DNA of 64,000 nucleotides, taken from Kitasatospora albolonga (GTDB lineage Bacteria > Actinomycetota > Actinomycetes > Streptomycetales > Streptomycetaceae). The notes beneath the pieces are model-generated. The model made no database searches, was not told the DNA's origin, and saw only the letters and a program-made list of their open reading frames with translations. A program made the translations under genes and the position numbers. The stretch's first letter is position 1. Every line of letters begins with the position of its first letter. The stretch covers positions 1,048,001 through 1,112,000 of the forward strand of contig CP020563.1 in the NCBI GenBank assembly GCA_002082585.1, in the 5' to 3' direction. This document shows, piece after piece, positions 3,829 to 24,900 of the stretch.

Positions 3829-5924
3829 CGCCGCCCCCTCCGTTCGCGGCGGGCCCGGCGCGCGGCCCGTTCGGTGACGCGGCGCAGGCCGGGCGCGGCG
3901 GTGGCATCGGGGTCGCCTTCGCCGTCTCCGTCGAGGTGGCGGGCCAGCGCGGCGACGGTCGGGTGCCGGTACAGGTCCGGCAGCGGCACCAGTACACCAA
4001 GGCTGTCCCGCAGCAACCGCTGCACATCGGCCAGCAGAAGCGAATTGCCGCCCAGATCGAAGAAGTTGGCGTCGGTGACGACGGCCTGCGTGTCGAGGGC
4101 CGTGCACCAGGCCCGGGCTATCGCCTCTTCGGTGGGGGTACGCGGCCCGAGGCCCTCTCCGCCCTGTCCCGTGGGCCGGGGCTCCCGCGGAGCGGGCAGC
4201 GCCCGGGTGTCGACCTTTCCGGTGCTGGTCAGCGGCAGGGTGTCGAGGACGGTCAGCAGGCGCGGCACCAGGTGCTCGGGCACCCGGTCCGCCAGCCCGC
4301 GGCGCAGCTCCCCGGGGTCGGGCCGGACGCCCGCGACGGGTTGGACGTACCCCAGCAGCTCCGTACGGCCCGTGCCGTCGGCCACGGCGACCGCCACGGC
4401 CCGCAGGACGCCCGGCAGAGCCGCGAGGTGGTACTCGATCTCACCGAGTTCGACACGGATGCCTCGGACCTTCACCTGGCGGTCGAGCCTGCCCAGATAC
4501 GCCAGCCTGCCGTCCGGCAGCCATCGCCCCAGGTCGCCGGTGCGGTAGCTGGACACCGACATGCGGGGAGCGGCGGAGGCGTGGTCGGTGTGCTCGGCGT
4601 GGTCCGTGACCTCGTCCCGGCCGAACCGGTCGGCGGTCAGCTCGGGCGCCCGCCAGTAGCCCGGCGCGACGAACGGGCTGTGGATGACGATCTCCCCCTC
4701 GTCGGCCGACACCTCGCCCCCGGGGCCGAGGAGCGAGATGGCGTACCCGGGCAGCGGGTGGCCGATGGGCAGGACGTCGTGCTCCAGCTCCGCGTCCGGC
4801 GGCAGGTGGTCCTGTACGGCGAAGCTGGCCTCGGTGGCCCCGTACCCGTTGACGAACACGCAGTCCGGCGCGAAGTGGGCGCGGCAGAGCAACGCGTCGT
4901 GCCGGGTGACGGATTCACCGCCGAGCACCACCGCGCGGACCGTGTCCAGGCGCCGCCCCCCGAGCGCGTCGACGAGGTAGCGGTACACCGTCGGGGTGGA
5001 GTGGAAGAGCGTCGTCCCCCGGTCGGTCAGCGCCTGCGCCAAGTAGGCCGGGCCGTGCCGCCGTACGTCCACGACGACGGCCGCCGCCCCGGCGAGCAGG
5101 GCCGCGAACGTGTCGGTCACCGCCATGTCGAAGCTGAAGGAGGACGCCACGCTCAGCCGGTCCGCCGGGGTGATGCGGAAGTTCTCGATGTGGTTGGCGA
5201 CACCGTGCAGCACATTGCGGTGCGTCTGCGGCACGCCCTTGGGTACGCCCGTGGAGCCGGAGGTGCAGAGCAGGTAGGCCAGGTCGTCGGGGGCGGTCGG
5301 GGGCTCACCGGAGTGAAGTGACCTTTCGCCGAGGCGAGTTGACTGGACGTCAGGTTCGGTCGGCCGGTCGTCGGCGCCCGTCCGGGTCGGTGGCGGTACC
5401 ACGCGCAGCGGTTCCGCCCGCAGTCCGGCCGCCGGGACCGCCTCGTCCGCGATCACGATGCCGATCCCCGCCAGCTCGACCAGTTGGGCCAGGCGCGGTG
5501 CGGGATGGGCCGGGTCCAGTGGTACGTAACAGCCTCCGGCGAACAGCACCCCCAGGATCGCGGCCACGGTCTCCGGCGAGTGCTCCAGCAGGATGCCCAC
5601 ACGGTCGCCGTGCCGGATTCCGGCGGTCCGCAGCGCGGCGGCCGTCCGGTGCGCCGCGGCGTCGAGCATCCGGTACGTCCATGGCTCGCCCTCCCCCAGC
5701 ACCGCCACGGCGTCGGGCCGACGGGCGACCTGCGCGGCGAACGCGGCCGGGATCGTGGCGTGGCCGGTGAGCGGCCGGTATCCGGGCTGCTGCCGGTGCG
5801 GGGCGGCGAAGGGGGCGAGGACGGGGGTGGTACGCGCGCCCTCCTCCGGCCGGGGCGGAAAGCTCCGGTTGTGCGGATGCGGATGTGTCGCGGTCATCTG
5901 TCCCCGCCCTTTCCTTCCGGTCAC
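3825..5924 (-). CDS. NRPS loading-type didomain (A-T)
   Basis: 699 residues from GTG 5924, which overlaps the oxidoreductase stop (GTGA); ATG 5897 is an alternative. The adenylation domain spans about 50-560, with CTSGSTGVPKG near 220-230, YRTGDLG, and a clear GRLDRQVKVRG core. The pocket residues I read by aligning to GrsA are D-M-T-H-V-G-G-F-A, which I cannot assign, though Asp235 indicates an alpha-amino acid. The thiolation domain has FFDLGGNSLL with Ser628 as the phosphopantetheine site. The C terminus is strongly Arg-rich (RRARRERRGRR), a possible docking tail. It lacks a C domain, so it should load a starter or act in trans. The next gene is a KS, so the loaded residue probably passes there. 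Confidence 0.9.
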   Translation of the reverse strand: MTGRKGRGQMTATHPHPHNRSFPPRPEEGARTTPVLAPFAAPHRQQPGYRPLTGHATIPAAFAAQVARRPDAVAVLGEGEPWTYRMLDAAAHRTAAALRTAGIRHGDRVGILLEHSPETVAAILGVLFAGGCYVPLDPAHPAPRLAQLVELAGIGIVIADEAVPAAGLRAEPLRVVPPPTRTGADDRPTEPDVQSTRLGERSLHSGEPPTAPDDLAYLLCTSGSTGVPKGVPQTHRNVLHGVANHIENFRITPADRLSVASSFSFDMAVTDTFAALLAGAAAVVVDVRRHGPAYLAQALTDRGTTLFHSTPTVYRYLVDALGGRRLDTVRAVVLGGESVTRHDALLCRAHFAPDCVFVNGYGATEASFAVQDHLPPDAELEHDVLPIGHPLPGYAISLLGPGGEVSADEGEIVIHSPFVAPGYWRAPELTADRFGRDEVTDHAEHTDHASAAPRMSVSSYRTGDLGRWLPDGRLAYLGRLDRQVKVRGIRVELGEIEYHLAALPGVLRAVAVAVADGTGRTELLGYVQPVAGVRPDPGELRRGLADRVPEHLVPRLLTVLDTLPLTSTGKVDTRALPAPREPRPTGQGGEGLGPRTPTEEAIARAWCTALDTQAVVTDANFFDLGGNSLLLADVQRLLRDSLGVLVPLPDLYRHPTVAALARHLDGDGEGDPDATAAPGLRRVTERAARRARRERRGRR

Positions 5925-7045
5925 GCCGGTCCCGCCGCCGGTACGCCTGACGGCCCCTCCGGCCCGCCCGGCGGCCCCTCCGGTGCCCGGCGCAGGCGTT
6001 CACGCAACGTCAGCAGCCGGGCGCAGACCTCCGGTGTCCGCGCGGCCTCGAACTCCTCGGTCTCCTCGGTCTCCCAGCCCGGTTCGGCCTCCGCCAGGGC
6101 CGCCGCGGCGGCCGGGGCGAACCTCACCCGCCCGTTGCCGACGACGACCCCGTCGGCCCGCGACCACCGCTGGTTGGCGGCCACCGCTTCCTCCGGGCTC
6201 AGGCCGGTCGGCAGACGGAGCGTCAGGCGGCCGCCGCTGATCCGTACCGGGTAGCCGCCGGGCAGTCCGGCCACCCCGGGCAGGCTGGTGTCCAGCTCCG
6301 AGCCGCTCGCCAGCGCGTCGATCACCATCGCCCCCGCCTGGCCGGTCACCTGGTTGAGGGACGGGCGGTCGCAGGCGCGCTGACCGGCCAGCGCCGCCGT
6401 GACGCCGTCCAGCGGCTCGTCGTCCAGCCAGCCGAGGGCCTCGCCCGCCGGGCCCGGCGGGTTCAGGTGGACATGGTGGCCCACCACCCGCAGCCGCCGC
6501 TGGTCGGGCAGGCCGAGGCCGGACTGGAGGCTCGCGGCCAGCAGCGCGACGTTGCCGATGCCGCACAGCACCGGCACCCGCAGCGCGGCCAGCAGCGGGT
6601 TGACCGCGTCCGGGAAGCAAGCGTTGACGAACCAGGAGCCGGACGCGGCCGCCGCCCGGCCCGCCACCACGGCGAGGTCCGCCTGCAACGGGAGCGTCAG
6701 GCCGAAGCCGCCGCGTCCGAGGAGGGCGGTCCAGGCGGAGGGCTCCGCCCGGCGCTCCCACGGCGACTGGTGGGAGGCGCACAGCAGCACCCCGTCCGGG
6801 GCCTCCCCCCGGATCACCTCGGGCAATGCGGCCCGCAGGTCCGGTCCGGTCGTACGGGGCCGGAACCGGACCGCCCGACCGGCCAGCGCGGCGCGCGTTC
6901 CGGCCAGTCGGCATAGGTGGACGGCACTTTCCCCCCGGGCCGCCACGACCACCCGCAGCGGCGGGCCGGACGCGGTCGCCAGGGCCGCGCAGACGGCGGA
7001 GGCCAGGGAACCGCTGCCGATCACCAGGACCGTGGGCGCCGTCAT
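5921..7045 (-). CDS. Rossmann-fold NAD(P)-dependent oxidoreductase-like protein
   Basis: 374 residues from ATG 7045, the first gene of the minus operon. The N terminus VLVIGSGSLASAVCAAL (about 5-21) is a dinucleotide-binding beta-alpha-beta turn. Later segments NACFPDAVNPLL and GHHVHLN are placed roughly like the N-P-D and G-E-H-G elements of lactate/malate dehydrogenases, and a saccharopine- or octopine-dehydrogenase-like enzyme is an alternative; no family is certain. It ends in a Gly/Pro-rich tail. Its stop overlaps the A-T start by 4 nt, so the two are translationally coupled. With the PLP-like gene in the same operon, it may help make an unusual amino acid building block. That role is inferred from context only. 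Confidence 0.6.
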   Translation of the reverse strand: MTAPTVLVIGSGSLASAVCAALATASGPPLRVVVAARGESAVHLCRLAGTRAALAGRAVRFRPRTTGPDLRAALPEVIRGEAPDGVLLCASHQSPWERRAEPSAWTALLGRGGFGLTLPLQADLAVVAGRAAAASGSWFVNACFPDAVNPLLAALRVPVLCGIGNVALLAASLQSGLGLPDQRRLRVVGHHVHLNPPGPAGEALGWLDDEPLDGVTAALAGQRACDRPSLNQVTGQAGAMVIDALASGSELDTSLPGVAGLPGGYPVRISGGRLTLRLPTGLSPEEAVAANQRWSRADGVVVGNGRVRFAPAAAAALAEAEPGWETEETEEFEAARTPEVCARLLTLRERLRRAPEGPPGGPEGPSGVPAAGPA

Positions 7046-7306
7046 GACCGAGCGCCCCGTTCGAGCGCTCGCATGGTTGCAAAAGTGATCGTCGGTATCG
7101 GCACGGCTGGATACTAACGCCCCATCGGCCTTAGTGGGGGCCCGAAAACAAGATACTCGAACACTTCCCAAGCGTCATTCCCATGGTTAGCATGCCCAAA
7201 TCCGTGCGAGATCAAGTCAGTCCTGTCCGGCCGGAATCCCCGGTGCGGGCATGGTGCAGGGGGCGAACCTCCCGACGCCTGTGGGCTTTTCCGGGGGGAG
7301 CTTGAG
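7046..7306. promoter_or_regulatory. Divergent promoter region between the minus operon and the LanB-like operon
   Basis: This 261-nt gap is noticeably less GC-rich than its surroundings. On the plus strand TTCCCA (7165-7170) and TAGCAT (7188-7193) are spaced by 17 nt and could be a sigma-70-type promoter for the LanB-like operon. A perfect 10-bp palindrome lies at 7062-7071, 17 nt upstream of the oxidoreductase start, and could be an operator. Both calls rest on sequence inspection only. Confidence 0.4.
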
Positions 7307-9697
7307 TTGGGTGTGCCGCCGATGTCCGCGCCGGTCGGGGAAGGTGCCGACAACCAGCCGATCGGGTTGGCCGAACTGCCCGGAACCCAGTGGCGAGTGT
7401 GGCGCGAGGGTGTCCTGCGCTCCACGGGTTTTCCGGCGGAGGGGCTGCGCGCGCTGGCGTCGGCGGACGCCGCTTCGGCCGCCGAGGCCCATCTCGCCGG
7501 AGACCTCGACGCGTCCGGCTACCGCGCGGCCTTCGACAAGGCCGCCGCTGCCGCCGGTGCCCAGTTGTACGAGATAGCGGGCGACCCGCTCTTCCGTGAG
7601 GCGATCACCTGGCAGAACCCCGTTCTGCTGGCGTCCCTGGACGGGCTGCGCGCGGCCGGTCCCGATGCCCGCCCGGACCGCAAGACCCGCCGCAGGCAGG
7701 CGGTGGTGGCCCGTTACTGGCAGCGCTACTGCGCCAAGAACGACACCATCGGCTTCTTCGGCCCGGTGTGCTGGGTCCGGCTGACCGACGACGACGCCGT
7801 GGTGACGGCCCGGCCGGGGCCCGGTCTGGTCACCGGGCGGCAGGTGTATCTGGAGTGGTGGGCCCTGGCGGCGTTCGCGGACCGGCTGGCCGCCGATCCG
7901 CTCTTCCGGCCGTACCTGCCCGTCGCACTCCAGCCTCATCTCTCCGTACATGATGGGAAGTTGCACCGGCCGGTGACCCCGCCCGCCGCGCTCTCCCCCG
8001 CCGAGGCGGCGCTCCTCGGCCTGCTGGCGGGGCCGCGCCCGGCCGCCGCCCTGGTGGCCGAACTCGTCGCGGACCGCGGCAACCCCGTCCGCCGCGAAGC
8101 GGACGGGTTCATGCTGCTGGAGCGCCTCACCGAGCGCGGTGTGCTGCGCTGGGGCATCGACCTGCCGCTGAACCTGACCGCCGAACCGGCCCTGCGCGCG
8201 GGCATCGACGCGATCGCGGAGCCCTCCGTACGCGAGGCCGCCCGGGAGGAGTTCGGCCGGCTGGACGCCGCCCGTGCGGAGGTGGCCGCGGCGGCGGGCG
8301 ATCCGGCCGCCCTGCGCGCCGCGACGGTCCGGCTGGACGAGGTGTTCACCGAGCTGACCGGGCACGACAGCCGTCGCAGGGCCGGAGAGACGTACGCGGG
8401 ACGCACGCTGTGCCACGAGGACTCCATGCGCGACCTGGAGCTGTCGTTCGGCCGCCCGCTGCTGGCGGAGCTGGCCCCCGCCCTCGACGTACTCCTCACG
8501 GCCGCGCGCTGGCTCAGCCACACCCTGGCGTCGGCGTACCGGCGGGCGCTGCGGGAGGTCCACGCCGATCTGAGCGCCGAACTCGGCACCCGTGACGTCC
8601 CGTTGGGCGATCTGCGCTATCTCGCCAACGGCCTGTTCTTCGGCTCCGGCAGGAGGCCCGTCGACGACGTCGTGGCCGCCTTCGCCGAACGCTGGGCCGA
8701 GTTGACCGGCGGTACGGAACCGGCGCCGGGCGTCCGCCACGTACGGCTGCGCTCCTCGGAGCTGGCCGCCAGGGCCGCCGAACTGTTCGACGCACCGGGG
8801 CCCGGCTGGTCCACCGCCCGTATCCACAGCCCGGACCTCCAGATCTCCGCACCCAGCCTGGAGAGCCTGGCCGCCGGGGAGTACACGGTGGTGCTCGGGG
8901 AGCTGCACGCGGCATATCTGACCCTGTGCACCGGGGTGTTCAGCTGGGCCCATCCCCGGCCGCGCTCCCTGCGGTCCGCGATCGACCGGGATCTCGGGAT
9001 GGGCCGGGTGCAGGTGCTGCTGCCGGAGGACTTCCCCCGGATGACCGCCCGGGTCGCCGATCTGCTGTGGTCGCCGGACCACTGGCAGCTCGGCTACGCC
9101 CCGGCCCACGGCGCCGAGCACTCCCGGCTGCTCCCGGTCACCGCGATGACGGTGACCGAGCGGGACGGCGACCTGGTGGCGCGCCACGCCGACGGGCAGG
9201 AGTGGCCGCTGCTGGAGGTGTTCGCCGACTTCCTGTCCATGCACACGGCGGACGCGTTCAAGCTGGCCACGGCCGGACCGCATACACCCCGGGTGTCGAT
9301 CGACCGGCTCGTCGTGGAGCGCGAGACCTGGCGCTCCACGGTGGGGGCGACGGGTCTGGCCACGGCCAAGGGCTATGCCGCGCGGTATCTCGCGGCCCGG
9401 CGCTGGGCCGCTGAACTCGGCCTGCCGGACCGGGTGTTCATCCGTCTGGGCACCGAGATCAAGCCCACGTACGCGGATCTGACCAGCCCGGCGCTGATGA
9501 ACTCGCTCGCGTCCATGGCCCGCCGCGCCCAGCAGGACGGAGGGCCCGACGTCGAGGTGGTGGTCACGGAGGCGCTGCCGCTCCCCGAGGAGACCTGGGT
9601 GCCGGACGCCTCCGGCCGTACCTACTGCTCGGAGTTGCGCCTCCAGTTCCGTGATCCGCTCGTCCCTCCGCATGCCGCAGGGGGCACCGATGACTGA
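7307..9697 (+). CDS. LanB-like (lantibiotic dehydratase N-terminal domain) protein 1
   Basis: 796 residues. The start chosen is TTG 7307, 6 nt after a GGGGGGAG ribosome site; GTG 7313 is an alternative. It belongs to the lantibiotic dehydratase family, with the family-type stretch RYWQRYCAKNDTIGFFGP near residues 136-153, shared almost exactly with the second LanB-like protein at 19137-21455. At this length it covers roughly the glutamylation domain of LanB enzymes, which transfers glutamate from glutamyl-tRNA to Ser/Thr. A C-terminal elimination domain is not apparent. No lanthipeptide precursor or cyclase gene is near. Its stop overlaps the A-T-C-T start by 8 nt, so its product is likely made with the assembly line. 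A PEARL-type aminoacyl-tRNA ligase or a dehydration partner for an NRPS intermediate are the two options. Confidence 0.85.
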   Translation: MGVPPMSAPVGEGADNQPIGLAELPGTQWRVWREGVLRSTGFPAEGLRALASADAASAAEAHLAGDLDASGYRAAFDKAAAAAGAQLYEIAGDPLFREAITWQNPVLLASLDGLRAAGPDARPDRKTRRRQAVVARYWQRYCAKNDTIGFFGPVCWVRLTDDDAVVTARPGPGLVTGRQVYLEWWALAAFADRLAADPLFRPYLPVALQPHLSVHDGKLHRPVTPPAALSPAEAALLGLLAGPRPAAALVAELVADRGNPVRREADGFMLLERLTERGVLRWGIDLPLNLTAEPALRAGIDAIAEPSVREAAREEFGRLDAARAEVAAAAGDPAALRAATVRLDEVFTELTGHDSRRRAGETYAGRTLCHEDSMRDLELSFGRPLLAELAPALDVLLTAARWLSHTLASAYRRALREVHADLSAELGTRDVPLGDLRYLANGLFFGSGRRPVDDVVAAFAERWAELTGGTEPAPGVRHVRLRSSELAARAAELFDAPGPGWSTARIHSPDLQISAPSLESLAAGEYTVVLGELHAAYLTLCTGVFSWAHPRPRSLRSAIDRDLGMGRVQVLLPEDFPRMTARVADLLWSPDHWQLGYAPAHGAEHSRLLPVTAMTVTERDGDLVARHADGQEWPLLEVFADFLSMHTADAFKLATAGPHTPRVSIDRLVVERETWRSTVGATGLATAKGYAARYLAARRWAAELGLPDRVFIRLGTEIKPTYADLTSPALMNSLASMARRAQQDGGPDVEVVVTEALPLPEETWVPDASGRTYCSELRLQFRDPLVPPHAAGGTDD

Positions 9698-12600
9698 GGC
9701 CGCGCCCGAGAGCCGGAGCAGCGTGCCCGGGAGCCTGGGCAACGTGTCCGGGAGCCTGGGCAACGTGTCCGGGAGCCTGGGCAGGGGGGAGCCGCTCCCG
9801 GCGGCCGCGCCGACCGTGGGGCATGCCGTCCTGGCGGCGGCGCGGCGGAACCCCGGCGCGATCGCCGTACGCCAGGGCCGCCACGCGGTCACCTACGCCG
9901 AACTGACCGCCTCCGCCGGTCGTTTCGCCCGGACGCTGCGCGATCTCGGCGTGGGGCCGGAGGTCGCGGTCGGGGTGTGCGGCCGACGGGGGCCGCACAC
10001 TGTCGCGGCGATGCTGGGCGTCCTGCTCGCGGGCGGCGCCTATGTGCCGCTGGACCCGACGCACCCGCGTGACCGGCTGCTGGCCGTTCTCGACGACGCC
10101 GGGGCGGAGCTCGTGGTCGTCGACGGCGAGGGGCGCGCGCTGCTCGCCGACGCCGCGCCGGACCGGCTGTTCGTGACCGCACCGGCCGAGGGGCCGGTCG
10201 CGGCGGTCGCGCCGCACGAACCGCACGAACCGTCCCAGGGCCACCACTCGAACCTCGACGCGCTGCTCCCGGATGCCCTGTCCCCGGACAACTCCGCGTA
10301 CGTGATGTACACCTCCGGCTCGACCGGTGCCCCCAAAGGCGTGGTCGTCACCCATCGCAATGTGACGGCGTTCCTCACCGCCGCCGCGCACCGCCTCGGG
10401 ATCGGTACGGACACGGTCGCCCTGGCCACCGCCTCGTTCGGCTTCGACGTGAGCGTCCTGGAGGTCTTCACCACGCTGGCCGTCGGCGGCACCGTCGCCC
10501 TGGTGCCGGAGGCCGACCGACGGTCCCCGGAGCGGCTCGGCCGCTTCGCCGCGGAGCACGGCGTCACCTGGGCCGCCCCGCCCGTGTCGATGCTGCCGCT
10601 GCTGGACCCGGCCGACTTCGCCGCGCTGCGGGTGCTCGTGGCCACCGCCGAGCCGGTCGCGCCCGATCAGGTGCGGCGCTGGGCCGGTACCGCCGACGCG
10701 CCCGGGGTGCGTTTCATCAACGCCTACGGCCCCACCGAGACCACCGTCGAGGCCACCGCCCACGATGCCGTCGGCGACTGGACCCGGCCGGTGCCGATCG
10801 GGCGTCCGCTGCCGAACCTCCGGGTGTACGTGGTGGACGCGGCGCTGCACCGGACGCCCGTGGGTGTGGCGGGCGAGCTGTGGATCGGGGGTGCCGGACC
10901 GGCCCGGGGGTATCTGGGGCGGCCCGGTGCGACCGCGCGGCAGTTCGTCGCCGACCCCTTCTCCGGGTCGGGCGGGCGGCTCTACCGCACCGGTGACCTG
11001 GCGGCCCGGGAGGCCGACGGGACCCTGCGCTACCTCGGCCGTGCCGACCGGCAGCTCAAGGTCCGGGGCCACCGGGTCGAGCCCGGGGAGGTGGAGGCCG
11101 TCCTGACCTCTCATCCCGGGGTCCGCCAGGCGGTCGTCGATCTGGTCCCGGCTCCGGCGGGCCCCCTGCTGACGGCGTTCCTGACGCCCTCGCAGGCCCC
11201 GTCGCAGGCGCCGCCGTCGGAGACGTCCTCGCAGGCACCCTCACAGACCCCGTCGGACGCGGTCCTGCGCGAGCACTGCCGCCGGGTGCTGCCCGCCGCC
11301 CTGGTGCCCGCGCGCTTCGTCCGGCTCGGCACCCTGCCCCGTACCGCCTCCGGCAAGACCGACCGGGCGGCACTGCACGCCCTGGCGGCACCGGCCGACA
11401 ACCCCGGGACCGGCGGCGGCTGGCAGCCGGACGGTGAGGAGGCGGCCGTCCTCGCCCGGGCCTGGGCCGATGTCCTCGGGGTGCCGGTGCGCTCCGGCGA
11501 CGACACCTTCTTCGACGCGGGCGGGCACTCCCTCGGCGCGATGCGGCTGGTCGCCCGGTTACGGTCCGATCTGGACCGGGACGTGCGGATCGAGGACGTC
11601 CTGCGCAGCCGTACGGTCGACGGCATCGCCGCCGTCCTGGCCGCCGCCCCGCCGACCGGCCAGGAGCTGACGCTCGGCAACCCGCCGGCACTGTCGGCGG
11701 CGCAGCGGCGGCTGTGGTTCCTCGACCAGCTCACCACACGGAGCGGCGCGCACAACATCGCGCTGGCGCGGCGGCTGCGCGGCCCACTGGACGGGGAGGC
11801 GCTGCGGTCCGCGCTGGCCGAGGTCGCCCGGCGGCACGAGGTGCTGCGCTGGCGGATACCGACCGCCGACGGTGTGCCGACGGTGGTCGTCGACCCGCCC
11901 GGTGAGATCCCGCTGCCCGTCACCGATCTGACGGCGCTGCCGCCCACGGAGCGCGCCCGCGCTCTGGAGGCGCAGCTCGCGCAGGCCGCCGGAGCCCCCT
12001 TCGACCTGGCCGCCGACCGGCTCTGGCGGGCCCGGCTGCTGCGGGTCGGCGAGGACGAGCACGTCCTCGCGGTCACCGCCCACCACGCCGTGTTCGACGG
12101 CTGGTCGCAGGGGCTGTTCCTGCACGACCTGGGCACGGCCTACGCGCGCCGCACCGCTCCGCTGCCGCCCGTCGCGGCCTCGTTCGCGGACTACGTGGCC
12201 TGGCGGGCGGACCGGGCCGAGCGCCGCGCCGCGAGTGATCTGGCCTGGTGGCGGGGGCATCTGGACGGCGTACCGCCCGTGCTGGAGCTGCCCGCCGACC
12301 ATCCCCGCCCGGCCGAACAGTCCTTCCGGGGCGGGCGCGTGGAGACGCTGCTCGGTACGGAGACCACGGCGGCGGTGCACGCGCTGGCCCGGGAGTGCGG
12401 GGCGACGCCGTCGGCGGTGCTGCTGGCCGTGCTCGGCCGGCTCGCCGGACTGCTCGCCGGACGCGAGGACGTGGTCATCGGCACGCCCGCCGTGGACCGG
12501 CGGCACCCCGCGTTCCTGGATCTCGTGGGCTTCTTCATCGAGGTGGTGCCGCTGCGGCTGCGCCCGGCCGCCGACCGGAGCTTCCGGGCGCAGCTGCTGG

Positions 12601-13370
12601 GGGCCCGCGATGAGCTGCTGGACGCCCTGGCCCACCCCGAGGCACCGGTCGAACGCCTGGTGGAGGAGTTGCGGCTGCCCCGCGATCCGTCCCGCCAGCC
12701 GCTGGTCCAGGTGCTGTTCAACGCCTACAACTTCCCGCAGCCACGGCTGGAAATGCCCGGTCTCGGTGTCACGGCGGAGCCCGTGCCCGTGCCCGGGGCG
12801 CCGTTCGACCTGACCGTGTACGCCACCGAGTCCGCGGGCCGTTACCGGATCGAGCTCGTCCACAGCACCGATCTGTTCACGGCCGCCCGCGCGGAGCGGC
12901 TCCTCGCCGCCTATGTCCACCTGCTGAACGCCTTCCTCGACGCGCCGGACCGTCCGGCCGGGGAGACCGGCCTCGGCCCGTACGCCGATCTGCTGAAGGG
13001 CACGGCCGCCGGTCCCGCCCCCGCCCCGGCCGCCCCGCAACAGCCCGCCGTCCCCGGAGGCGGCAGCGAGGCGGCCGTCCTGTCCGTGTGGCGGCAGGTC
13101 CTGGGGCGCGACGACATCAGGGCCACCGACAACTTCTTCGACGTCGGCGGAACGTCACTGCTGCTCGTCGCCGTGCGGCAGCGGCTCGAGGACGTGCTCG
13201 GACGGCCGCTGCGGGTCGTGGACCTGTTCCACCACCCGAACGTCCGCGCCTTCGCCGCCCATCTCGACGGCGTCGCCCCGACGGCCGGTGCGGACCGGGG
13301 CACCGACCGTGCGCTGGCACGCCGCCGCCGTACCCCCTCCCGCGCCGCCCGCCGACGCGGCACCGACTGA
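9690..13370 (+). CDS. NRPS, A-T-C-T
   Basis: 1226 residues from ATG 9690 with GGGGG upstream. The order is a low-complexity N terminus (three repeats of a 7-residue unit), an A domain (about 45-560; YTSGSTG at 207-213), T1 with Ser614, a C domain (HHAVFDG, His798), and T2 with FFDVGGTSL, Ser1156. The A pocket as I read it is D-V-L-A-V-T-A-V-E, unassigned. A loop before the A10 core holds [12 protein letters not shown] repeats. T2 has no adenylation domain in cis, so it must be loaded in trans or by the single A domain. Residue 624 is a TTA codon (11559-11561), implying bldA dependence. The C terminus is Arg-rich. The PKS gene follows after 40 nt, so T2 probably hands its chain to that KS. Confidence 0.9.
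9723..9784 (+). repeat. Three tandem 21-nt repeats in the 5' end of the A-T-C-T gene
   Basis: Two near-identical 21-nt units and a third of 20 nt run in frame and encode a Gly/Ser-rich 7-residue unit (SGSLGNV). They lie before the adenylation domain and are likely a flexible, slippage-prone linker. Confidence 0.85.
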
Positions 13371-13410
13371 CACCGCACCGCCCGGCTTCCGAACCCGAAG
13401 AGGCAGAAAC

Positions 13411-16400
13411 ATGACGACCCCGTACGACTCTCCCGGCGGCGCTCACGACGTCCTCGGCGGCGCCGACGACATCGAACCGATCGCGATCGTGGGCATGGCC
13501 TGCAGGCTGCCCGGCGCGGCCGACGTGGACGCCCTGTGGCGCAACCTGGTCGACGGTGTCGTGTCGACCCGGACCCTGTCGCGTGCCGAGCTGCTCGCCG
13601 CCGGGGTGCCGCCGGAGACAGCCGACGACCCGTCGTACGTACCCGTGGTGTCCGCCCTGGACCACCCCGAGTCGTTCGACCCCGGTTTCTTCGGCATGAC
13701 CCGCCGTGAGGCGGAGCTCGCCGATCCGCAGATCCGGCTCTTCATGGAGCTGGCGAACACCGCGCTGGAGCACGGCGGTTACGACCCGAAGCGCTTCGAG
13801 GGGGACATCGGCGTCTGGGGCGGGGTGGGGCCGACCCGGTACTTCTACCGGCACCTCGGCGGCAACCGTGCCGTGCTCGACGCCCTGGACGGGTCGATGG
13901 CCCTGTCCAACGCCAACCTGGCGGACTACGTCACGACCACCACCTCGTACCACCTCGACCTGCGCGGGCCGAGCATCAGCGTGCACACGGCCTGCTCCAC
14001 CTCACTGGTCGCCGTGCACACCGCGTGCGAGTCGCTGCGCGGCGGCGAGTGCGATCTCGCGCTGGCGGGCGGCGCCTCCATCGAGCTGCCGCTCCACCAC
14101 GGCTACCGGCACACCGAGGGCGGGGTCGAGTCCGAGGACGGCCGCTGCCGCCCGTTCGACGCCGCCGCGACGGGCACCGTCTGGGCCTCCGGGGGCGCCA
14201 TGGTGCTGCTCAAGCGGCTCTCCGACGCCCTGGCGGACGGCGATCACGTGCACGCGGTGATCCGGGGCAGCGCGGTCAACAACGACGGCGCCGACAAGGT
14301 GGGGTTCACCGCGCCCAGCGTGGAGGGGCAGGCCGCGGCGGTGACGACGGCGCTCTCCGTGGCCGGGGTCGACCCCCGGACGGTGGGCTATGTCGAGGCG
14401 CACGGCACGGCCACCGGTCTCGGCGACCCGATCGAGGTGCGGGCGCTCTCGCAGGCGTACGGGCGCGGGACCGGCGACCGGGGCTGGTGCGGGCTGAGCT
14501 CCCTCAAGTCCAACATGGGCCACCTGAGCCAGGCGGCGGGGGCCGCCGGGCTGATCAAGGCGGCGCTGTCGCTGCGCCACCGGATGATCCCGGCCAGCGT
14601 CGGCTACGAGTCGCCCAACCCGGCCATCGACTTCGACAGCGGCCCGTTCTACGTCAACGCCACCCTGGCCAAGTGGGACACCGACGGCACCCCGCGCCGG
14701 GCCGGGGTCAGCTCGTTCGGCATCGGCGGCACCAACGCGCACGTCATCCTGGAGGAGGCGCCGCCGGTCCCGGCGGGCACCCCGTCGGAGCGGTCCGCGC
14801 ATCTGCTGCAATTGTCCGCGCGGACCCCCGAGGCCCTGGCGACCGCTGTGGACGAACTCGCCGCGCACCTGGCCGACCGGCCCGGACTGGCTCTCGCCGA
14901 CGTGGCGCACACCCTGCGGACCGGCCGCCGCGAGCACCGGCACCGTACGGCGGTCGTCGCCACCGACACCGCGAGCGCGGTGGCCGCGCTCCGGGCGGGC
15001 AAACGCCGGCCGACCGGGGAGGCGGCCCGCCAACGCCCGCAGCTGGCCTGGCTGTTCTCCGGGCAGGGCTCCCAGTACGCGGGCATGGGGGCGGAGCTCT
15101 ACCGCACCGAGCCCGTCTTCCGGGACGCCGTCGACGCCTGCGCCGCCCTTCTCGTACCGGAACTGGGCCTGGACATAAGAGAGTTGCTGTTCGCCGACGG
15201 CGGCGGCCCGGACGCGGAGGCGGCGCGGGCCGAACAGGAGGCTGCCGACGAGAAGTTGCGCCGCACCCGGTACACCCAGCCGGCGCTGTTCACCGTGGAG
15301 TACGCGCTCGCCGTGCTCTGGCGCTCGTGGGGCCACTCCCCCGACGCGATGGCCGGCCACTCCATCGGGGAGTACGTCGCCGCCACCCTGGCCGGGGTCT
15401 TCGAACTGCCCGACGCGCTGCGGCTGGTGGCGCTGCGCGGGCGGCTGATGGACGCCCTGCCGGCCGGTGCGATGCTCGCCGTGCAGCTGGGGGCGGACGA
15501 GGTGGCGCCCCGGCTGCCCGCCGCCCTGTCGGTGGCCACCGTGAACGGGCCGGGCGTGTGCGTGGTGGCCGGTCCGCCCGAGGCGGTCGAGGCGTTCGCG
15601 GCGGAGCTGAAGGCGGACGGCCACCGCAGCCGTGAGCTGCGCACCTCGCACGCCTTCCACTCCGCGATGATGGAGCCGGTGCTCGCCGAGTTCACCGCCG
15701 CCGTGGCCTCGGTGGAGCGGCGGGCCCCGCAACTGCCCTTCCTGTCCAATGTGACGGGTACGTGGTTCACCGAAGAAGACGCCGCCGACCCGGCGTACTG
15801 GTCGCGGCACCTGCGCTCCACCGTCCTCTTCGGGGAGTGCGTCGCCACCCTGCTGGCCGGGGGCGCGTGGGCGTTCGTGGAGTGCGGGCCGGGCCGTCAG
15901 CTCGCCGGACTGGTGCGGATGCAGACCGGGCGCGACGCGCTGGTGCTGCCGAGCCTGCCCGGGTCGGCCGAGTCCGCCGACGGCGCGGCCGTCTGCTACA
16001 CGGCCGCCGGGACGCTGTGGACCCGTGGATTCCCGCTGGACCCGGAGGCGTTCGGGCAGCGGGCGGCCCGGGTGCCGCTGCCCGTCTACCCGTACGAGAG
16101 GGTCCGCTGCTGGATCGAGCCCGATCCGCCGCAGGCCGTGGCCGCGACGGCTGGGGACACTATCGCCGCCGACGCCGCCGACCTGGTTCCGGCCGAACCC
16201 GCCGAGTGGTTCCAGGTGCCGGTGTGGCGGCGGCTGGCCCCCACGCCCGGTGCCCGGCCGGCCCCCGCCTGCGTGCTCTTCGACCCCGAGGGCGGCTCCG
16301 ACGGCCACGGCGGCGGGGACGGGCTGTACGCCGCTCTGACCCGGGGCGGTACGGCGGTGACCCGCGTACGCCCCGGCAGCGGCTACGCCCACGACGGGGC

Positions 16401-19071
16401 GGGCACGCACACCGTGCGCCCCGCCGATCCGGACGACTATCTGGCGCTCGTACGGGCCCTGAAGACCGACGGGGTTCTCACCGGGGCCGAGGGCGTACGG
16501 ATCGTGCACGCCTGGCCGTTGGCCCCCGCAGCCGGTGAGGAGCCCGTGGCGGCGGCCTGGGCGGCCCAGGAGCGCGGCTATCTCAGCCTCGTCTGCCTGG
16601 CCCGGGCGCTCGCCGCCGAGGCCGCCGACCTCCCCGTCCACCTCGATGTGGTCACCGCCGGGGTGCACGACGTCGTCGGGGGCGACGCCCGGCACCCCGA
16701 GCACGCGACCGTGGCCGGGGCCGTGCTCGCCGTCAACCGGGAGCTGCCCGCCGTCACCGCCCGCCACCTCGACCTGGACGCCGGGCAGGCCCTGTCGGCC
16801 CGGGGCGCGGAGCAGGCGGTCGCGGCGCTGTGGCGCGACCCCGGCCCCGACCGGGACCGGCCGCTCGCCCTGCGCGGCGGCAGGCTCTGGGTGCGCGGCT
16901 TCGACCGGGCCCCGCTGCCGGAGGCCGGGGACGGGCCGTGGCGGACCGGCGGGGTCTACCTGGTCACCGGCGGCTACGACGGCCTCGGCCTGGCGGTGGC
17001 GGAGGAGCTGGCGAGCCGCTTCCGGGCCCGGCTCGTCCTGCTCGGCCGCTCCGGGCTGCCGCCGAGGGACCGGTGGGACGCGCTGCGCTCCACCTCCGGC
17101 CGCGCGGGCACGGCGGTCGCGGCGGTGGAGCGAATGGAGGCGGCGGGTGCGGAGGTGCTGACGGTGGCCGCCGACGTGTGCGACCCGGCGGCCCTGCGGC
17201 GGGTCCGCGCGGAGCTCCTGGAGCGTTTCGGGCGGCTGGACGGTGTCATCCACGCGGCGGGGCTGCCGGGCGACGGGATGCTGGAGGTCAAGCCGCTCGA
17301 CGTGGCGCGCGCGGTGCTCGCCCCGAAGATGGCCGGAACGCTGGCCCTGGAGGCCGTGTTCGGGGACCTTCCCCTGGACACCGTGGTCCTCTTCTCCTCG
17401 CTGTCCTCGGTGGTCGGTGGTATCGGGGACACGGACTACATCGGCGCCAACGCCTTCCTGGACGCCTACGCCGCCTCGGCGCACGGCTGGTCGGCCCCGG
17501 TGTCGTCGCTGGGCTGGGGCGCCTGGGCGCGGATCGGGATGGCCGCCCGCTCCACCGCGCGCGCGTTCCTGGAGCGGCCGACGGCCTCCGGCGGCGTACC
17601 GGTCGCCCACCCGGTGCTGACCGAGCTGGTACCGGCCTCCGACGGCTCGCCCGCGTACTGCCGGGGCGTCATCTCGGCCGAACAGCACTGGCTGCTCGAC
17701 GAGCACCGCATCGGCGGAGTGCCCGTCATGCCCGGCACCGGGCAGCTCGAACTCGTCCGCGCGGCGGTGGCCGCCTGGCGGCCCGCACCGGACGAGGACA
17801 GCGAACTGGAGCTGACCGACATCGCGTTCACCGAACCGGTCACCGCCCCGGACGGCACCCGGACGGAGGTACGGGTCGCCCTGTGGGCGGACGCCGACGG
17901 GACGGAGTTCGCCCTGTCCACCGTGCGCGACGGCACCCTGCGCTCCCACACCCGGGGCCGTGCCGCCTGGGTGCGGCCGGAACCCGCCGCGCCGGTCGAC
18001 ACCGTCGCGGTCCGCGAGCGGTGCGTGGCGGTGGAGCGGGCGGCCGACCTCTTCAACTCCCGGCTCGACGAGAACCCGGTCCTGACGTTCGGTCCGCGCT
18101 GGCGCTGTCTGCGCGAGGCGTGGATCGGTGACGACGAGGAGATCGTGCGCCTGGCCCCGGCCGGGGCGGACGGCCTGGGCTGGCCGCTGCATCCGGTGCT
18201 GCTGGACGTGGCGACCATGCCGCTCGGGCCGGGCGGCGGCGGCAGCCGGCTGCCGATCGGCTACGGCCGCGTACGCGTCCACGCCCCGCTCGACACGGCG
18301 GTGTGGGTCTACCGGTCGCGCGACGGCGCCCACGCCGACGACGCCTCGGTCATCTCCTGGGACTTCACCGTCACCGACGCCGCCGGACGGCCGCTCGTCA
18401 CGGTCGGCGACTTCATGCTGCGCATCGTCCGGCCGGAGGCGTCCCGCGCGGCCGTCGCTGCGCCGCCGGAGCCGGTGACGCAGGACACCGGTCCGGCGGA
18501 CCCCTGGGCGATCCTGCCCGCCGACGGCCTGGAGGCGCTCCACCGCGTGGTGGCCGCGACCCCCGCGGCCCATGTGCTGATCGCGCCCGGGCGGTACGAC
18601 GGCATGCTGCGCGGCAGCGCCGAACGGGCCGAGCGGGCCCTTGCCGTGCTGCGCGGCGAGAGCGTCGAACCGGCCGCCGCGACCGCCGCCTCCGGCCTGC
18701 CGGGCAGCTCCGGCCCGTCCGGCGCGGACGCGGCGGACGGTGACGACCTGGTGGCGGTCATCGGCCGGATCTGGTCGGCGGTCCTCGGTGAGCAGGACCT
18801 CTCGGAGGACGACGACTTCTTCGAGCTGGGCGGGAACTCGCTCGTGGCCGTGCAGCTGGTCGCGCAGATCCGCAGGGCGACGGGGGTGCGGATGCCGATA
18901 CGGACGCTGTTCGACGCCCCCACGATCGCGGGCATGGCCGCGCGCATCGCGGAACTGCGGGAACGGGACGCGCAGGAGCGGGACGCAGCGGACCGGCCGG
19001 AGCGTCCGACGCCGCCCCCGCCCGCCGCTCCGGGGGGCATGACGATTCCGGTCCTGCCGCGTCCGAGCTGA
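13411..19071 (+). CDS. Type I polyketide synthase module, KS-AT-KR-DH-ACP
   Basis: 1886 residues from ATG 13411 (AGAGG upstream). The KS (about 24-450) has the full triad: Cys195 in TACSTS, EAHGTAT and NMGH. The AT (about 545-880) has GHSIGEY with Ser651 and a HAFH motif, which predicts malonyl-CoA. A ketoreductase near 1150-1400 has the NADPH motif TGGYDGLG and the catalytic Ser/Tyr region ending YIGANAF; the LDD motif of B-type KRs is absent. A dehydratase follows, with [11 protein letters not shown] and a second-half HPVLLD motif. The ACP has FFELGGNSL with Ser1810. The DH lies after the KR, the reverse of the usual DH-KR order. The module should add one acetate and leave an alpha,beta-unsaturated unit for the first C domain of the large NRPS. 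It ends at a bidirectional terminator. Confidence 0.93.
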
Positions 19072-19076
19072 GGAGA

Positions 19077-19120
19077 GGGTGGGGCGGCCCGGGGCACTTC
19101 TGCCCCGGGCCGCCCCACCC
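19077..19120. terminator. Bidirectional terminator between PKS and LanB-like 2
   Basis: A perfect 20-bp stem (19077-19096 with 19101-19120) closes a CTTC tetraloop, right between the convergent PKS stop and the stop of the second LanB-like gene. It is one of the strongest hairpins in the window. Confidence 0.9.
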
Positions 19121-19136
19121 CCACCCCCGACCGGCG

Positions 19137-21455
19137 TCAGCCCCGGCCGGACGGCTCCGGGTCGATGATCTGGAGCCGGAGCTCGGAGGAGTACCGCCGC
19201 CCCTCCCCGTCCGCCAGCCACGCGTGCTCGGCCGTGGGCAGCGCCTCCGTGACGATCACCTCGACGTCGTCGCCGCCCTTCGTCCGGGCCGCGCGCAGCA
19301 TGGTGCAGAGCAGGCGTACGTACACCGGGCTGGTGAAGTCGACGAACTGCGGCTTGATGTCGGTGGCGACCCGGACGTACACCTGCTCGGGCATGTCCGC
19401 CGCCAGCCGCCAGCGGCGGGCCGCCACATACCGCTGCTGCTCGCCGGTGACGTCGGCCAGTCCGCCCGCGCCGACCGTGGTGCGCCAGGTGCGGCGTACG
19501 AGTACGAGGTCGTCGACCGTGATCCGGGGGGTGTGGCCGCCCGCCCCGGCCAGCTTCCAGGTGTCGAACGCCTGGAGGCCCAGCATGTTCGCGAAGACCT
19601 CCAGGACCGGCCATCGCCGTCCGTCGTCCGTGCGGGCGACGAGCCCGTCCGGACCGTCCTCGACGGTCAGGTCCGTGACCGGTACGAGCCGGTCGGGGTC
19701 CGCGCCGGGGGCCGGGGCGAAGCCCAGTTCCACATCGTGCGGCCCGTGCATCCAGTACGCGTTGCGGGAGCAGTGCCGGGGCCAGTCGTGCGGCAGCAGC
19801 AGGCGGACCCGGCTGCCGGGGAGGTCGGCGGCCAGGGCGTCGCGCAGCGCCTGCGGTTCGGGGTGGCCGAGCGCGAAGAACTGCGTGTCGAACGCGGCGG
19901 AGGCGATGTGCAGTTCACCGAGGACGAGGGTGTAGTCGCCACGCGCCAGCGCGTCGGCGTCGGCGGCGCAGAGGTGGACGTCGGGGCTGTGCACCCGCGC
20001 CTCGGACCAGCCCGGCCGGTCGGCGGGGAACGCCCGGGCGGTACGGGCTCCGAGCTCCTCGGCGGTGAAGCGGAGTTCGGCGGTCCCGTGGGGGACGTCC
20101 GCCAGTCCGAGCACCTCCGTCCAGCGGTCCAGGAAGTCCGCGACCACCGGGTCGGCGGGCCGTTCGTCGCCGAAGACGAGTGCCTGGGCCATGAACCACA
20201 TTTCGCGCAGGGGCACATGGGGGCTGCCCGCGTCGGCGGCCAGCTCGCGGTACAGCCCGGTGAGCGCCGCCGTGTACACCTCCGCGATCCGGGCGGTCAG
20301 CCAGCGCGCGGACTGGAGCAGCGGTGCCAGACCGGCCATCCGGGCCAGCACGTCCCCGCCGATGGTGACGTCCAGGTCGCGGACGGTGTCCAGGTGGCAG
20401 AGGGTGCGGCTCGCGTACGTCTCGCCGGGCCGCCGCCGGGCGTCCCGGCCGGTGACGGCCGTGAAGGTCTCCTCCAACGCGGCCATGGCCGAGGCGAGTT
20501 CGTCCGGTCCGGTGGCGGCGGCCACCGTGTCGCGGGCACCGCACAGCCGGTCCATCGTCTCCAGCGCCCACGCCCGCGCCCCGGTGTCCCCGATGCCTTC
20601 CAGCAGCTCGCGCAGGAGCCGTTCGGCCCCCAGGTCCATCGGCAGGTCGAAGCCTGACCGGAGGGCCCCGGCGGCGGTGAGCCCGTCGAGCTGGGCGTAC
20701 ACGTCGGCCTCGCGGCGGAACGTACCGGCCCCGGTCAGCTCCGCCGCGAGCTCACCGGCCCGTCGGCGCCCGTCGCAGCGGGCCACCAGCGCGGCGGCGC
20801 CGGCCGTCAGGTCCTGCGCGGGCCGGTTCGGCCACACCAGCCGGCGGCCCTCCAGGCGCAGTTGCGGCTGGCGGGCCACGGGCAGCCAGGGGCGGAGCCG
20901 GTCGTCGGTGGCGAGGTGGGCGGCCAGCGCGTCGAGCGCCCACCACTCGAAGTGCACCGCCGCGTCCCGGACGAGCGCCGGTCCGTGCCGGACCGCCAGC
21001 CGTGGACCGCCGTTGTCCACCGTCGACCAGCTCATGGGGCCGAAGAAACCGATCGTGTCGTTCTTGGTGCAGTAGCGCTGCCAGTACTTGGCGACGATCT
21101 CCTCCCGCCGTCGGCGGCGCTCGTTGCGCCGGGCCGTGGGCCCGTCGCGGAGCACCCCGGCCACAGAGCTGAGGACGCCGGGGTTCTGCCAGGTGACGGC
21201 CTGGCGGAACAGCGGGTCGGCGCACACGTCGTGGACGGCCCGGCCCAGGCCGGTCATCGCGGCGGCGAACGCCTCGTCCACCCGGTCGGCCCCGGCGGAG
21301 CCCTCCAGGTGCCGGTCCACGGTCCGGGCCAGCTCCGGGGCGGCGAACGCGGCGATGCCGTCGGCGGGGAACCCGGCGGAGCGCACCAGGGTGTGCCGCC
21401 ACACGCTCCACGGGGTGCCGGGCAGGGGGACGAGATGGTCGGACAAGGCGGTCAC
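19137..21455 (-). CDS. LanB-like (lantibiotic dehydratase N-terminal domain) protein 2
   Basis: 772 residues from GTG 21455 with AGGAG 3 nt upstream. It is a paralogue of the protein at 7307-9697, with the same arrangement and the near-identical stretch KYWQRYCTKNDTIGFFGP at about 122-139. It also shares a closing segment VEVIVTEALP followed by a YSSELRLQ strand. As with its paralogue, only the glutamylation-type domain appears to be present. It is the last gene of the large-NRPS operon, after an MbtH gene. Two diverged copies in two separate operons suggest different substrates or a heteromeric pair rather than redundancy. No precursor peptide is visible nearby. Confidence 0.85.
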   Translation of the reverse strand: MTALSDHLVPLPGTPWSVWRHTLVRSAGFPADGIAAFAAPELARTVDRHLEGSAGADRVDEAFAAAMTGLGRAVHDVCADPLFRQAVTWQNPGVLSSVAGVLRDGPTARRNERRRRREEIVAKYWQRYCTKNDTIGFFGPMSWSTVDNGGPRLAVRHGPALVRDAAVHFEWWALDALAAHLATDDRLRPWLPVARQPQLRLEGRRLVWPNRPAQDLTAGAAALVARCDGRRRAGELAAELTGAGTFRREADVYAQLDGLTAAGALRSGFDLPMDLGAERLLRELLEGIGDTGARAWALETMDRLCGARDTVAAATGPDELASAMAALEETFTAVTGRDARRRPGETYASRTLCHLDTVRDLDVTIGGDVLARMAGLAPLLQSARWLTARIAEVYTAALTGLYRELAADAGSPHVPLREMWFMAQALVFGDERPADPVVADFLDRWTEVLGLADVPHGTAELRFTAEELGARTARAFPADRPGWSEARVHSPDVHLCAADADALARGDYTLVLGELHIASAAFDTQFFALGHPEPQALRDALAADLPGSRVRLLLPHDWPRHCSRNAYWMHGPHDVELGFAPAPGADPDRLVPVTDLTVEDGPDGLVARTDDGRRWPVLEVFANMLGLQAFDTWKLAGAGGHTPRITVDDLVLVRRTWRTTVGAGGLADVTGEQQRYVAARRWRLAADMPEQVYVRVATDIKPQFVDFTSPVYVRLLCTMLRAARTKGGDDVEVIVTEALPTAEHAWLADGEGRRYSSELRLQIIDPEPSGRG

Positions 21456-21548: not shown

Positions 21549-21782
21549 TCAGGACGCGGCCGGTGGCGGTCCGGCGTCCTCCATCGCCCGCACCAGGCTC
21601 AGGGGCCGCAGGTCCGTCCAGTGGGTCTCGACGTAGTCCAGGCACGCCTGGCGGCTGTCCTCCGGGTGCGCCACGGTCCAGCCCTCGGGCACCTCGGCGA
21701 AGGCGGGCCACAGCGAGTGCTGGCCCTCGTCGTTGACCAGGACCAGGAAGCGGCCTTCGGGGTCGTCGAACGGGTTGGTCAT
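21549..21782 (-). CDS. MbtH-family NRPS accessory protein
   Basis: 77 residues from ATG 21782 with a strong GAGGAGAGG ribosome site. The MbtH signature is complete: [10 protein letters not shown] near residue 17-26, then P-x-G-W, a Cys-x-x-Y-V segment and W-T-D-L-R-P-L-S. MbtH proteins bind adenylation domains and are needed for solubility or activity of some of them. The gene lies 121 nt after the large NRPS gene in the same operon, so its partner A domains are probably in that protein, with those of the two other NRPS proteins also possible clients. Nothing in it is unusual. Confidence 0.97.
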
Positions 21783-21903: not shown

Positions 21904-24900
21904 TCAGGGCCGCTGTCTCAGCAGGTCGTCGAGTGCGGCGCCGATGCGGCGCAGCGGCTCGGGCCGGGTCATGTCGTCGTGCACGCACGCGATCGGGTGG
22001 ACGCGCAGCTCGCCGGTGGTGTGTCCGGTCCAGGCCGCGGGCCGGGCCGGTTCGGGTTCGCCGGTCGCCGGGAACAGGTCCAGGTCCCCGTCGAAGCGCC
22101 CCGGGCGGTGCGCGGCGGCCAGCCGGGCGTTGTTGGCGACCACCCCGGCCAGTTCGGGGGCCAGTTCGGCGCCGGTCTCCGGGCCGAGCAGGCGGTGCAG
22201 CGCGGCCACCGGGTCGACGGGGGCGGCCAGTCGGCCGTCGTCCACCGGCTGGGCGTCGAGCAGGGCCAGCAGCCCGACCGGGGCTCCCTCCTGGCGGAGC
22301 CGTACGGCGATCTCGTGCGCCACCAGTCCGCCGTAGGACCAGCCGAGCAGGTGGTACGGGCCGGTGGGCCGGACGGAGCGGATCTGTTCGAGGTGGTCGG
22401 CGGCGACCTCGGCGAGCGAGCCGGGCAGCGGGCGGCCGGGGGCCGCGATCCGGGACTGGAGGCCGTAGACGGGCCGTTCGGGGTGCAGATGCCGCAGCAG
22501 GCCGGTGTAGCACCAGGCGAGTCCGGCGATCGGGGCCACGCAGAACAGGGGCGCGAGGCTCCCCGTCGTACGGATCGGGAGCAGCACGTCCAGTCCCCGT
22601 CCGCCGTCTCCCCCGCCGTCGCCGCTCTCCAGCCGGGCGGCGAGCGTGCCCGGGGTCGGGCTCTCGAAGAGCAGGCCGACCCCGAGTTCCACGCCGAGCC
22701 CGTCCCTGATCCGGCCGGCCAGCGCGGCGGCCAGCAGCGAATGGCCGCCGAGGTCGAAGAAGTTGTCGTCGGCGCCGACGTGTTCCACGCCCAGCACCTC
22801 CGCGAAGAGCTGGCGGAGCAGTTCCTCGCGGTGGCTGCGGGCGGGGAGGCCGGGGCGGGCGGGCGACGGGGCGGGCAGTGCCCGGTGGTCGAGCTTGCCG
22901 TTCGGCGTACGCGGGAGCGCGGCGAGTTCGACCACCGCGCCGGGCACCATGTACGGCGGCAGGGTGCGGGCCGCGTGCGCGCGCAGCGCCGCGTGGTCGA
23001 GGCCGCCTCCCTCCGCTGGCCCCCCTGCCGGTCCTTCCGCCGGTACGACGTAGGCCACCAGCCGCCGGTCGCCGGGCCGGTCCTCCCGTACGAGGACCGC
23101 CGCCCGGGCCACCCGGGGATGGGAGAGCAGGGCCGCCTCGACCTCGCCCGGCTCGATGCGGTAGCCCCGGAGCTTGATCTGCCGGTCGGCCCGGCCGAGG
23201 TACTCCAGCCTGCCCGCGGCCGTCCAGCGGGCCAGGTCGCCCGTGCGGTACATGCGTGCGCCGGGCGGCCCCCACGGGCAGGCCGTGAACCGTTCGGCGG
23301 TCGGCACCGGGCGGCGCAGATAGCCCTGGGCGAGGCCCGCCCCGGCGAGGTACAGCTCCCCGGTGACGCCGGGCGGGACCGGCCGGAGCCGTTCGTCCAG
23401 CACATAGGCCCGGGTGTTGGCCAGCGGGGTGCCGATGGGCTGTCCGGTGACCGGGCCGGTGAGGCGGGCGGCGGTGGACCACACGGTGGTCTCGGTCGGG
23501 CCATACAGGTTGGTGAGCTCGCCGCCGGGGCCGGACAGCCGGTCGGCCAGACCGGCGGGCAGCGCCTCCGCCCCGGTGAACTTCCTCAGTACGGGGAGGA
23601 GTTCGGGCGCGGATTCGGCGAGCGACTGCCACAGCGAGGGCGTGGCGTGCACGACGGTGACCGAGGTCTCCGCGCACCGCCGGGCCAGCGCCACCGGGTC
23701 GCGGACCGTGCCGGGACCGGCCAGGACGACGGCCGCGCCGCTCAGCAGCGGGCCGTAGAGCTCGGGCACCGACATGTCGAAGGCGGCGGTGGTCACCGAC
23801 AGCATCCGGTCGCCGGGGGCCAGCCGCAGGAGGCCGCTCAGGGCACCCATCAGGTTGGCGAGGGCGCCCCGGCCGATGACAACGCCCTTGGGCGGGCCGG
23901 TGGTGGCCGAGGTGTAGATGACGTACGCCGGGTCCGAGGCGGACGGCGGCCGGACCGGGCCGTCCGCCTCGGACCCGGGGGCGGTGAGGTCGTCCTCGTA
24001 CGGCACCGCCTCCAGCACCAGGTCGGGTGCGGCGTCGTCGAGCACCTGGCGCAGCCGGTCGGCGGGGTGGCCGGGGTCCAGCGGCAGGTACGCGGCCCCG
24101 GCCTTGAGCACCGCGAGCACGGCCACGAGGAACTTCTCGGTGCGCGGCAGCGGCAGGGCGACCAGGGAGCCCGGTCCGATGCCCCGGCCGGTCAGATGGT
24201 GCGCGAGCCGGTCGGACCACCGGTCGAGGTCCGCGTAACCGAGGCTGCCGTTCTCGCCGATGACGGCGTCGGCCCGCGGGGTGCGCCGGGCCTGGCGGCG
24301 GAACGCGGTGACGACGTCCGGGGCCGCCGGGGTCCCGGTGTCGTTCCACTCGTGGAGCAGCCGGTGGCGCTCGGGGGCGGTGAGCAGCCGGGGGCGGCCG
24401 ATGGGCTGGTCGATGTCGGCGGCCATGGCGCGCAGCAGTGTCCCGAACCACTGGTGGAACGCGTGCGCGGTGTCACGGTCGTAGAGGTCGCCCCGGTAGC
24501 CGAGGTGGCAGTCCAGGCCCTGCGGTGCGCCGTCGCCCGCCCGCCGCTCGGTGACCTCGAAGAACAGGTCGAACTGGGCGGTGGCCGGTTCGACGGGCAC
24601 CTCCTCGAAGCCGCCGTCCGCCGCCGTGGCCGTCTGGAGCGACAGCACCACCTGGAAGAGCGGGTGGCGGGCGGGGGTCCGGGCCGGGTTGAGCGCCTCG
24701 ACCAGGGACTCGAAGGGCAGGTCCGCGTGCGCGTAGGCGGCCAGGTCCGTTTCCCGTACGCGCTCCAGCAGTCGGCGGAACGTCGGATCGCCGCCCGTGT
24801 CGGCGCGCAGCACCAGGAAGTTGACGAAGCAGCCGACGAGCCGGTCCAGGGACGCGTCGCCCCGGCCGGAGACGGGGGTGCCGAGCGGGATGTCGGTGCC

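Follow-up and report, generated by a model that had tools for sequence, protein, structure and literature searches.

This locus of Kitasatospora albolonga raises the question of what two LanB-like proteins without an elimination domain do inside an NRPS/PKS cluster. In the window, by which we mean the whole stretch of 64,000 nucleotides that was analyzed, both open reading frames have the coordinates and lengths given in the initial annotation, and the second lies on the minus strand, which that annotation left unstated:

7307 to 9697, plus strand: P1, putative PEARL-like ligase with Lant_dehydr_N only, 796 aa
19137 to 21455, minus strand: P2, putative PEARL-like ligase with Lant_dehydr_N only, 772 aa

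Judging from its sequence, P1 would more likely start at the Met at residue 6 than at the annotated TTG. The two proteins share the WQRYC-x-KNDTIGFFGP stretch, as had been noticed before, and show 47% identity across 764 aa. Both belong to the LanB fold family: P1 matched the Pfam profile Lant_dehydr_N (PF04738) with an E of 3.9e-34, its best stretch running up to profile position 428 of 649, P2 matched it with an E of 1e-39 over the entire profile (1-649), and hhalign aligned the P1/P2 family with the full-length LanB of the same genome over 594 columns (probability 87.7, E 3.4e-6). Lant_dehydr_C was not matched in either protein up to an E of 1, which bears out the claim that the elimination domain is missing and leaves, as in a PEARL, a domain like the one for glutamylation in LanB. 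No NCBIfam family was matched by P1 or P2, and no PDB sequence by P1 (up to E 1) or by a two-row profile of P1 and P2 (up to E 10). Searching the genome with P1 at E <= 0.001 returned only the places of P1 and P2 themselves.

The two genes are surrounded in the window by the following:

629 to 2002, minus strand: DUF6002 protein (PF19465, E 5.9e-191), by eye only a fold-type-II PLP enzyme
1999 to 4107, minus strand: stand-alone ketosynthase (KS), Cys and first His retained, second His replaced by Asn (KANIGNLDAASG)
3825 to 5924, minus strand: A-T protein
5921 to 7171, minus strand: Rossmann-like protein (by eye), conservedly adjoining DUF6002
9651 to 13370, plus strand: A-T-C-T NRPS protein in which the second T has no A domain, C motif HHAVFDG
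13288 to 19071, plus strand: KS-AT-KR-DH-T polyketide synthase module
21549 to 21782, minus strand: MbtH-like protein
21904 to 37641, minus strand: large NRPS with a terminal thioesterase, start approximate
37430 to 39826, plus strand: radical SAM protein beside the NRPS start, its own start uncertain

Examined over 21904 to 36900, the large NRPS has Pfam stretches for five Condensation, five AMP-binding and four PP-binding domains and one thioesterase, and the radical SAM protein is a possible member of the cluster. In the DUF6002 protein PF00291 was not reported up to E 10, and its one match among PDB sequences was to a ribosomal protein (E 0.44); the Rossmann-like protein had no match in Pfam, NCBIfam or PDB. 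The upstream flank of the window holds arginine biosynthesis genes, with Pfam matches to argC-, argJ-, argR- and argH-type families, and the downstream flank holds pheT. In the titles, abstracts and passages covered, our literature search found no description of this cassette or its product, and DUF6002 was not found in any paper of the library searched.

An enzyme with a comparable setting was published in 2024: SnaE, the PEARL-like ligase of the NRPS/PKS threopeptin cluster of Stackebrandtia nassauensis, for which ATP activation of a free carboxylate, attack by an aminoacyl-tRNA and hydrolytic release are proposed (PMC11212132). According to that report, such genes are encoded in about two thousand NRPS/PKS clusters, with fusion to a thiolation or thioesterase domain in some of them (PMC11212132). 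On the evidence of sequence, we consider it probable that P1 and P2 are SnaE-type PEARL-like amide ligases, which add tRNA-borne amino acids to the free carboxylate of an assembly-line intermediate. P1 and P2 would phosphorylate the free carboxylate of a substrate made by the assembly line with ATP, the amine of an aminoacyl-tRNA would attack the activated carboxylate, and the tRNA would be released by hydrolysis, with one amino acid gained at an end that the NRPS/PKS cannot activate. A PEARL-type interpretation had been put forward in the initial annotation; it is partly supported by the missing elimination domain, the ATP-site residues, the Arg for the tRNA CCA end and the assembly-line setting, but its novelty falls away, as the ligation idea is largely in print for SnaE (PMC11212132), and what sets the present case apart is a conserved cassette that lacks the ureido motif and carries one to three ligases. 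Compared by description, P1 and P2 resemble SnaE in being stand-alone Lant_dehydr_N proteins in an NRPS-PKS cluster that has neither a precursor peptide nor, close by, a PF14028 (elimination domain) match. The sna system obtains its free carboxylate from a ureido-forming C domain (EHHXXHDG) and has a single ligase, which adds Thr (PMC11212132), whereas the K. albolonga cluster has two ligases, the A-T-C-T protein, the stand-alone KS and DUF6002, and EHHXXHDG is absent among the C motifs of both NRPS genes in the window. A sna-like ureido chain reversal was rejected on this ground; the ureido C domain belongs to the sna pathway and need not define the enzyme class.

The published active-site residues of BhaBC-Trp (PMC11962472, PMC12945691) were placed on P1 by motif spacing, from which we infer the correspondences below:

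7724 to 7726, plus strand: P1 Arg140, by Tyr-x2-Arg spacing BhaBC-Trp Arg208 (tRNA CCA end)
8834 to 8836, plus strand: P1 Asp510, by spacing BhaBC-Trp Asp558, in 71/71 relatives
8900 to 8908, plus strand: P1 Glu532-x-His534, by spacing BhaBC-Trp Glu575-x-His577, each in 71/71 relatives
9632 to 9640, plus strand: P1 Glu776-x-Arg778, by spacing Glu813-x-Arg815, Glu in 66/71 and Arg in 67/71 relatives
19980 to 19982, minus strand: P2 Asp492, column invariant in the family alignment
19908 to 19916, minus strand: P2 Glu514-x-His516, columns invariant in the family alignment
19176 to 19184, minus strand: P2 Glu758-x-Arg760, columns nearly invariant in the family alignment

By the same spacing, Tyr137-x2-Arg140 of P1 corresponds to Tyr205-x2-Arg208 and Phe711-x7-Lys719 to Phe755-x7-Lys763 of BhaBC-Trp, so that Phe/Tyr-x7-Lys and Glu-x-Arg are additional spacings in agreement. 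The ATP/carboxylate-site quartet Asp/Glu/His/Arg (D558, E575, H577, R815) is, by spacing, present with all four members in P1 and P2. Over the 71 relatives its Asp, Glu and His are kept throughout (71/71 each), and its Arg in all rows except four gaps; the Glu776 column likewise has four gaps, and one other letter.

A balanced alignment set a subset of the 71 family rows (25, made up of every third row and of P1 and P2) beside LanB controls and seven proteins of the locus L083, which are counted as PEARLs by genomic context only. The controls came to 22, namely three references and 19 of 20 Streptomyces loci chosen around a PF14028 match, the remaining locus (L129) having given no N-terminal domain. 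The complete quartet was found in 23 of the 25 relatives, five of the seven PEARL-context proteins and none of the LanBs (0/13 fused and 0/9 split, one split row being truncated at the Arg). At the Arg column the two incomplete relatives have a His and a gap, respectively. Of the quartet, the PEARL-context proteins have Asp, His and Arg in all seven and Glu in only five. At the four ATP-site positions P1 and P2 are set apart from the LanB controls, and the distribution of the quartet speaks for amide ligation with ATP more than for glutamylation and dehydration. The tRNA-binding Arg, which the initial annotation had proposed to check, is there by spacing, but because the Arg140 column is conserved in all classes (71/71 relatives, 7/7 PEARL-context proteins, 22/22 LanB rows) it does not discriminate between them. 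Neither do Lys719 and Phe711 with respect to split LanB, since they are common to 9/9 of those, nor Glu776 with respect to LanB, among which it is general.

It is very unlikely that P1 and P2 use Glu-tRNA to glutamylate a Ser/Thr hydroxyl of an assembly-line intermediate, with another protein then carrying out the elimination that gives a dehydroamino acid, even though the PF04738 match itself is compatible with such a role. Split LanBs, too, stand alone without an elimination domain; the one beside a thiopeptide-type protein in L084 (9664-12396) resembles P1 and P2 in its Pfam domain, its size class, the lack of a fused elimination domain and Lys144, but its elimination partner is adjacent and split LanBs lack the quartet (9/9). 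PF14028 proteins are also encoded elsewhere in the K. albolonga genome, at ~2.90, ~3.92 (two) and ~5.74 Mb, and PF04738 marks further LanB-like genes at ~2.9, ~3.9 and ~5.7 Mb. As the cluster lies at ~1.05 Mb, the nearest elimination domain is ~1.8 Mb off, and none is fused or adjacent to P1 or P2, as would be expected for a class I LanB. The mere presence of PF14028 in the genome carries little weight, because 44 of 61 Streptomyces genomes have matches. The two-step dehydration named earlier as the main alternative is disfavored by the quartet, the distance to PF14028 and the lack of a PLALA-like ORF in the window and 20 kb upstream, and we rejected it as the main reading; likewise, an elimination partner with a precursor peptide, which was to count against a ligase if it lay near the cluster, was not found there. 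If the ligase reading is right, a dehydratase annotation is wrong for P1 and P2.

The PEARLs that act on scaffold peptides (TglB, AmmB, BhaBC; PMC11962472, PMC12945691) have active-site residues that are alike by spacing, and a PLALA end is described as conserved in several PEARL substrate peptides (PMC11962472). P1 and P2 might accordingly be thought to act on a ribosomal scaffold peptide in a pearlin pathway, with the NRPS genes as mere neighbors, which we hold to be very improbable. L083, on a Kitasatospora plasmid (13590-33851), is a likely pearlin cluster, in which several LanB-like proteins are encoded between an upstream ORF whose product ends in APLALA and a downstream TldD/PmbA gene; the active-site set of its proteins is the same as that of P1 and P2, whereas KNDTIGFFGP is replaced by a KNETTSFFGP-like stretch in several of them. 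However, none of the 378 ORFs of 20-120 aa in the window and 20 kb upstream fitted as a PLALA-like scaffold peptide, the one loose C-terminal match being antisense to P1. For this reason the scaffold-peptide pathway was rejected and P1 and P2 were not filed as scaffold-peptide PEARLs. The company of these ligases in other genomes speaks against such a pathway as well: in 29 of 66 loci they are accompanied by A-T-C-T and PKS genes.

These 66 loci came from a scan of bacterial genomes with two short peptide patterns, by which distant relatives without the patterns are missed. In 29 of them, as determined with domain queries derived from the window, the ligase occurs together with an A-T-C-T protein lacking a second A domain, and the same gene arrangement was found in other genera. 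Each locus extends no further than 10 kb from its match or to the contig end, so ligase copies are lower bounds: at least one in 18 of the 29 loci, two in 9 and three in 2, with partial second or third copies in L005, L008, L020, L021 and L030 (the last with 2320 masked bases). L041 has a longer C-A-T-C-T protein in addition. Seven loci have a fused A-T-KS, with no DUF6002 or Rossmann gene in view. Across 30 loci, the position of the second catalytic His of the stand-alone KS reads GN in 20 and GH in 6 (all fused A-T-KS), with no pattern match in 4, and the EAHG motif was unmatched in 11. At what we take to be the A-domain code positions, the stand-alone A-T protein reads DMT in the window and in 17 locus rows, DLT and DAT in a single case each, and DAP in the seven fused proteins; against this near-constant code that of the A-T-C-T protein is variable, and no named amino acid was obtained from the codes. 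Four Actinomadura loci (L036, L037, L038, L040) carry ligases ~45-48% identical with only A-like proteins nearby, and no A-T-C-T or PKS match within the retrieved stretch. Among 295 Streptomyces genomes, P2 was matched at E <= 1e-30 in 28, with identity >41% in its own genome only, DUF6002 in 21, and two ligase matches ~5 kb apart in 10. In the tree, P2 groups with copies of L032, L034 and L035 (SH-aLRT 99) and P1 with L005 and L006 (SH-aLRT 100), both groups lying within a single 47-row clade (SH-aLRT 100). That the two ligase genes come from two separate clades suggests two additions or two different amino acids.

The retention in 29 of 66 loci of an A-T-C-T protein with no second A domain also brings up the reading that it is a carrier, for example the A-free second T, and not a free carboxylate, onto which the ligases would load or transfer amino acids. 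Two further loci point the same way: in L048 (2-5239) a single open frame of 1746 aa encodes both an A-T stretch and a LanB domain, and a plasmid of S. fungicidicus (L109, 11505-19562) has a minimal cluster of MbtH, ligase, A protein, PALP enzyme, carrier protein and ligase. We nevertheless regard carrier loading as unlikely, as the stand-alone A-T protein (a fused A-T-KS in seven loci) could serve the second T in trans, the retained ATP/carboxylate residues are better suited to carboxylate activation, and L013 and L017 still have one ligase despite a second A domain. L047, L048, L109 and the ~5-kb ligase pairs link the enzymes to carrier-protein chemistry without naming the acceptor. LanB-like gene pairs resembling those of L109 occur in other Streptomyces.

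For P1 and P2 as SnaE-type amide ligases, SnaE's source of the free carboxylate is missing, because neither NRPS gene in the window has a ureido-type C motif. L047, whose ligase is 36% identical to P1, is the only related locus with EHHXXHDG, in the form of EHHLIHDG (the published ureido signature) in a neighboring NRPS C domain. This setting, like the joint A-T/LanB frame of L048, speaks for the SnaE model, but L047 falls outside the 47-row clade of P1 and P2, which counts against it. Candidate sources would be a dicarboxylic carrier-bound unit, the DUF6002/Rossmann branch or the product after release. DUF6002 has an aspartate decarboxylase-like gene nearby in four cassette loci (L018, L019, L027, L056) and also in three Streptomyces genomes, and such a neighbor hints at beta-alanine in the DUF6002/Rossmann branch. 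DUF6002 and the Rossmann-like protein are also paired outside the cassette (L136, L137, L138), sometimes with an aspartate decarboxylase-like gene, which in L138 has a Pfam match. We propose, as a doubtful extension, that the cassette performs tRNA-fed elongation coupled to an assembly line, in which the carrier-bound chain would keep a carboxylate free without any ureido chemistry, possibly via the A-T/KS and the beta-alanine-linked DUF6002-Rossmann branch, and one to three ligase genes would set the count of ribosomal-type amino acids that are attached there in the reverse direction. If P1 and P2 are ligases, structure prediction from the NRPS alone would miss the tRNA-derived residues. The cassette would then join ureido chain reversal as another setting in which assembly lines are combined with tRNA-dependent ligation, and its versions with one, two and three ligases form a natural series for comparison.
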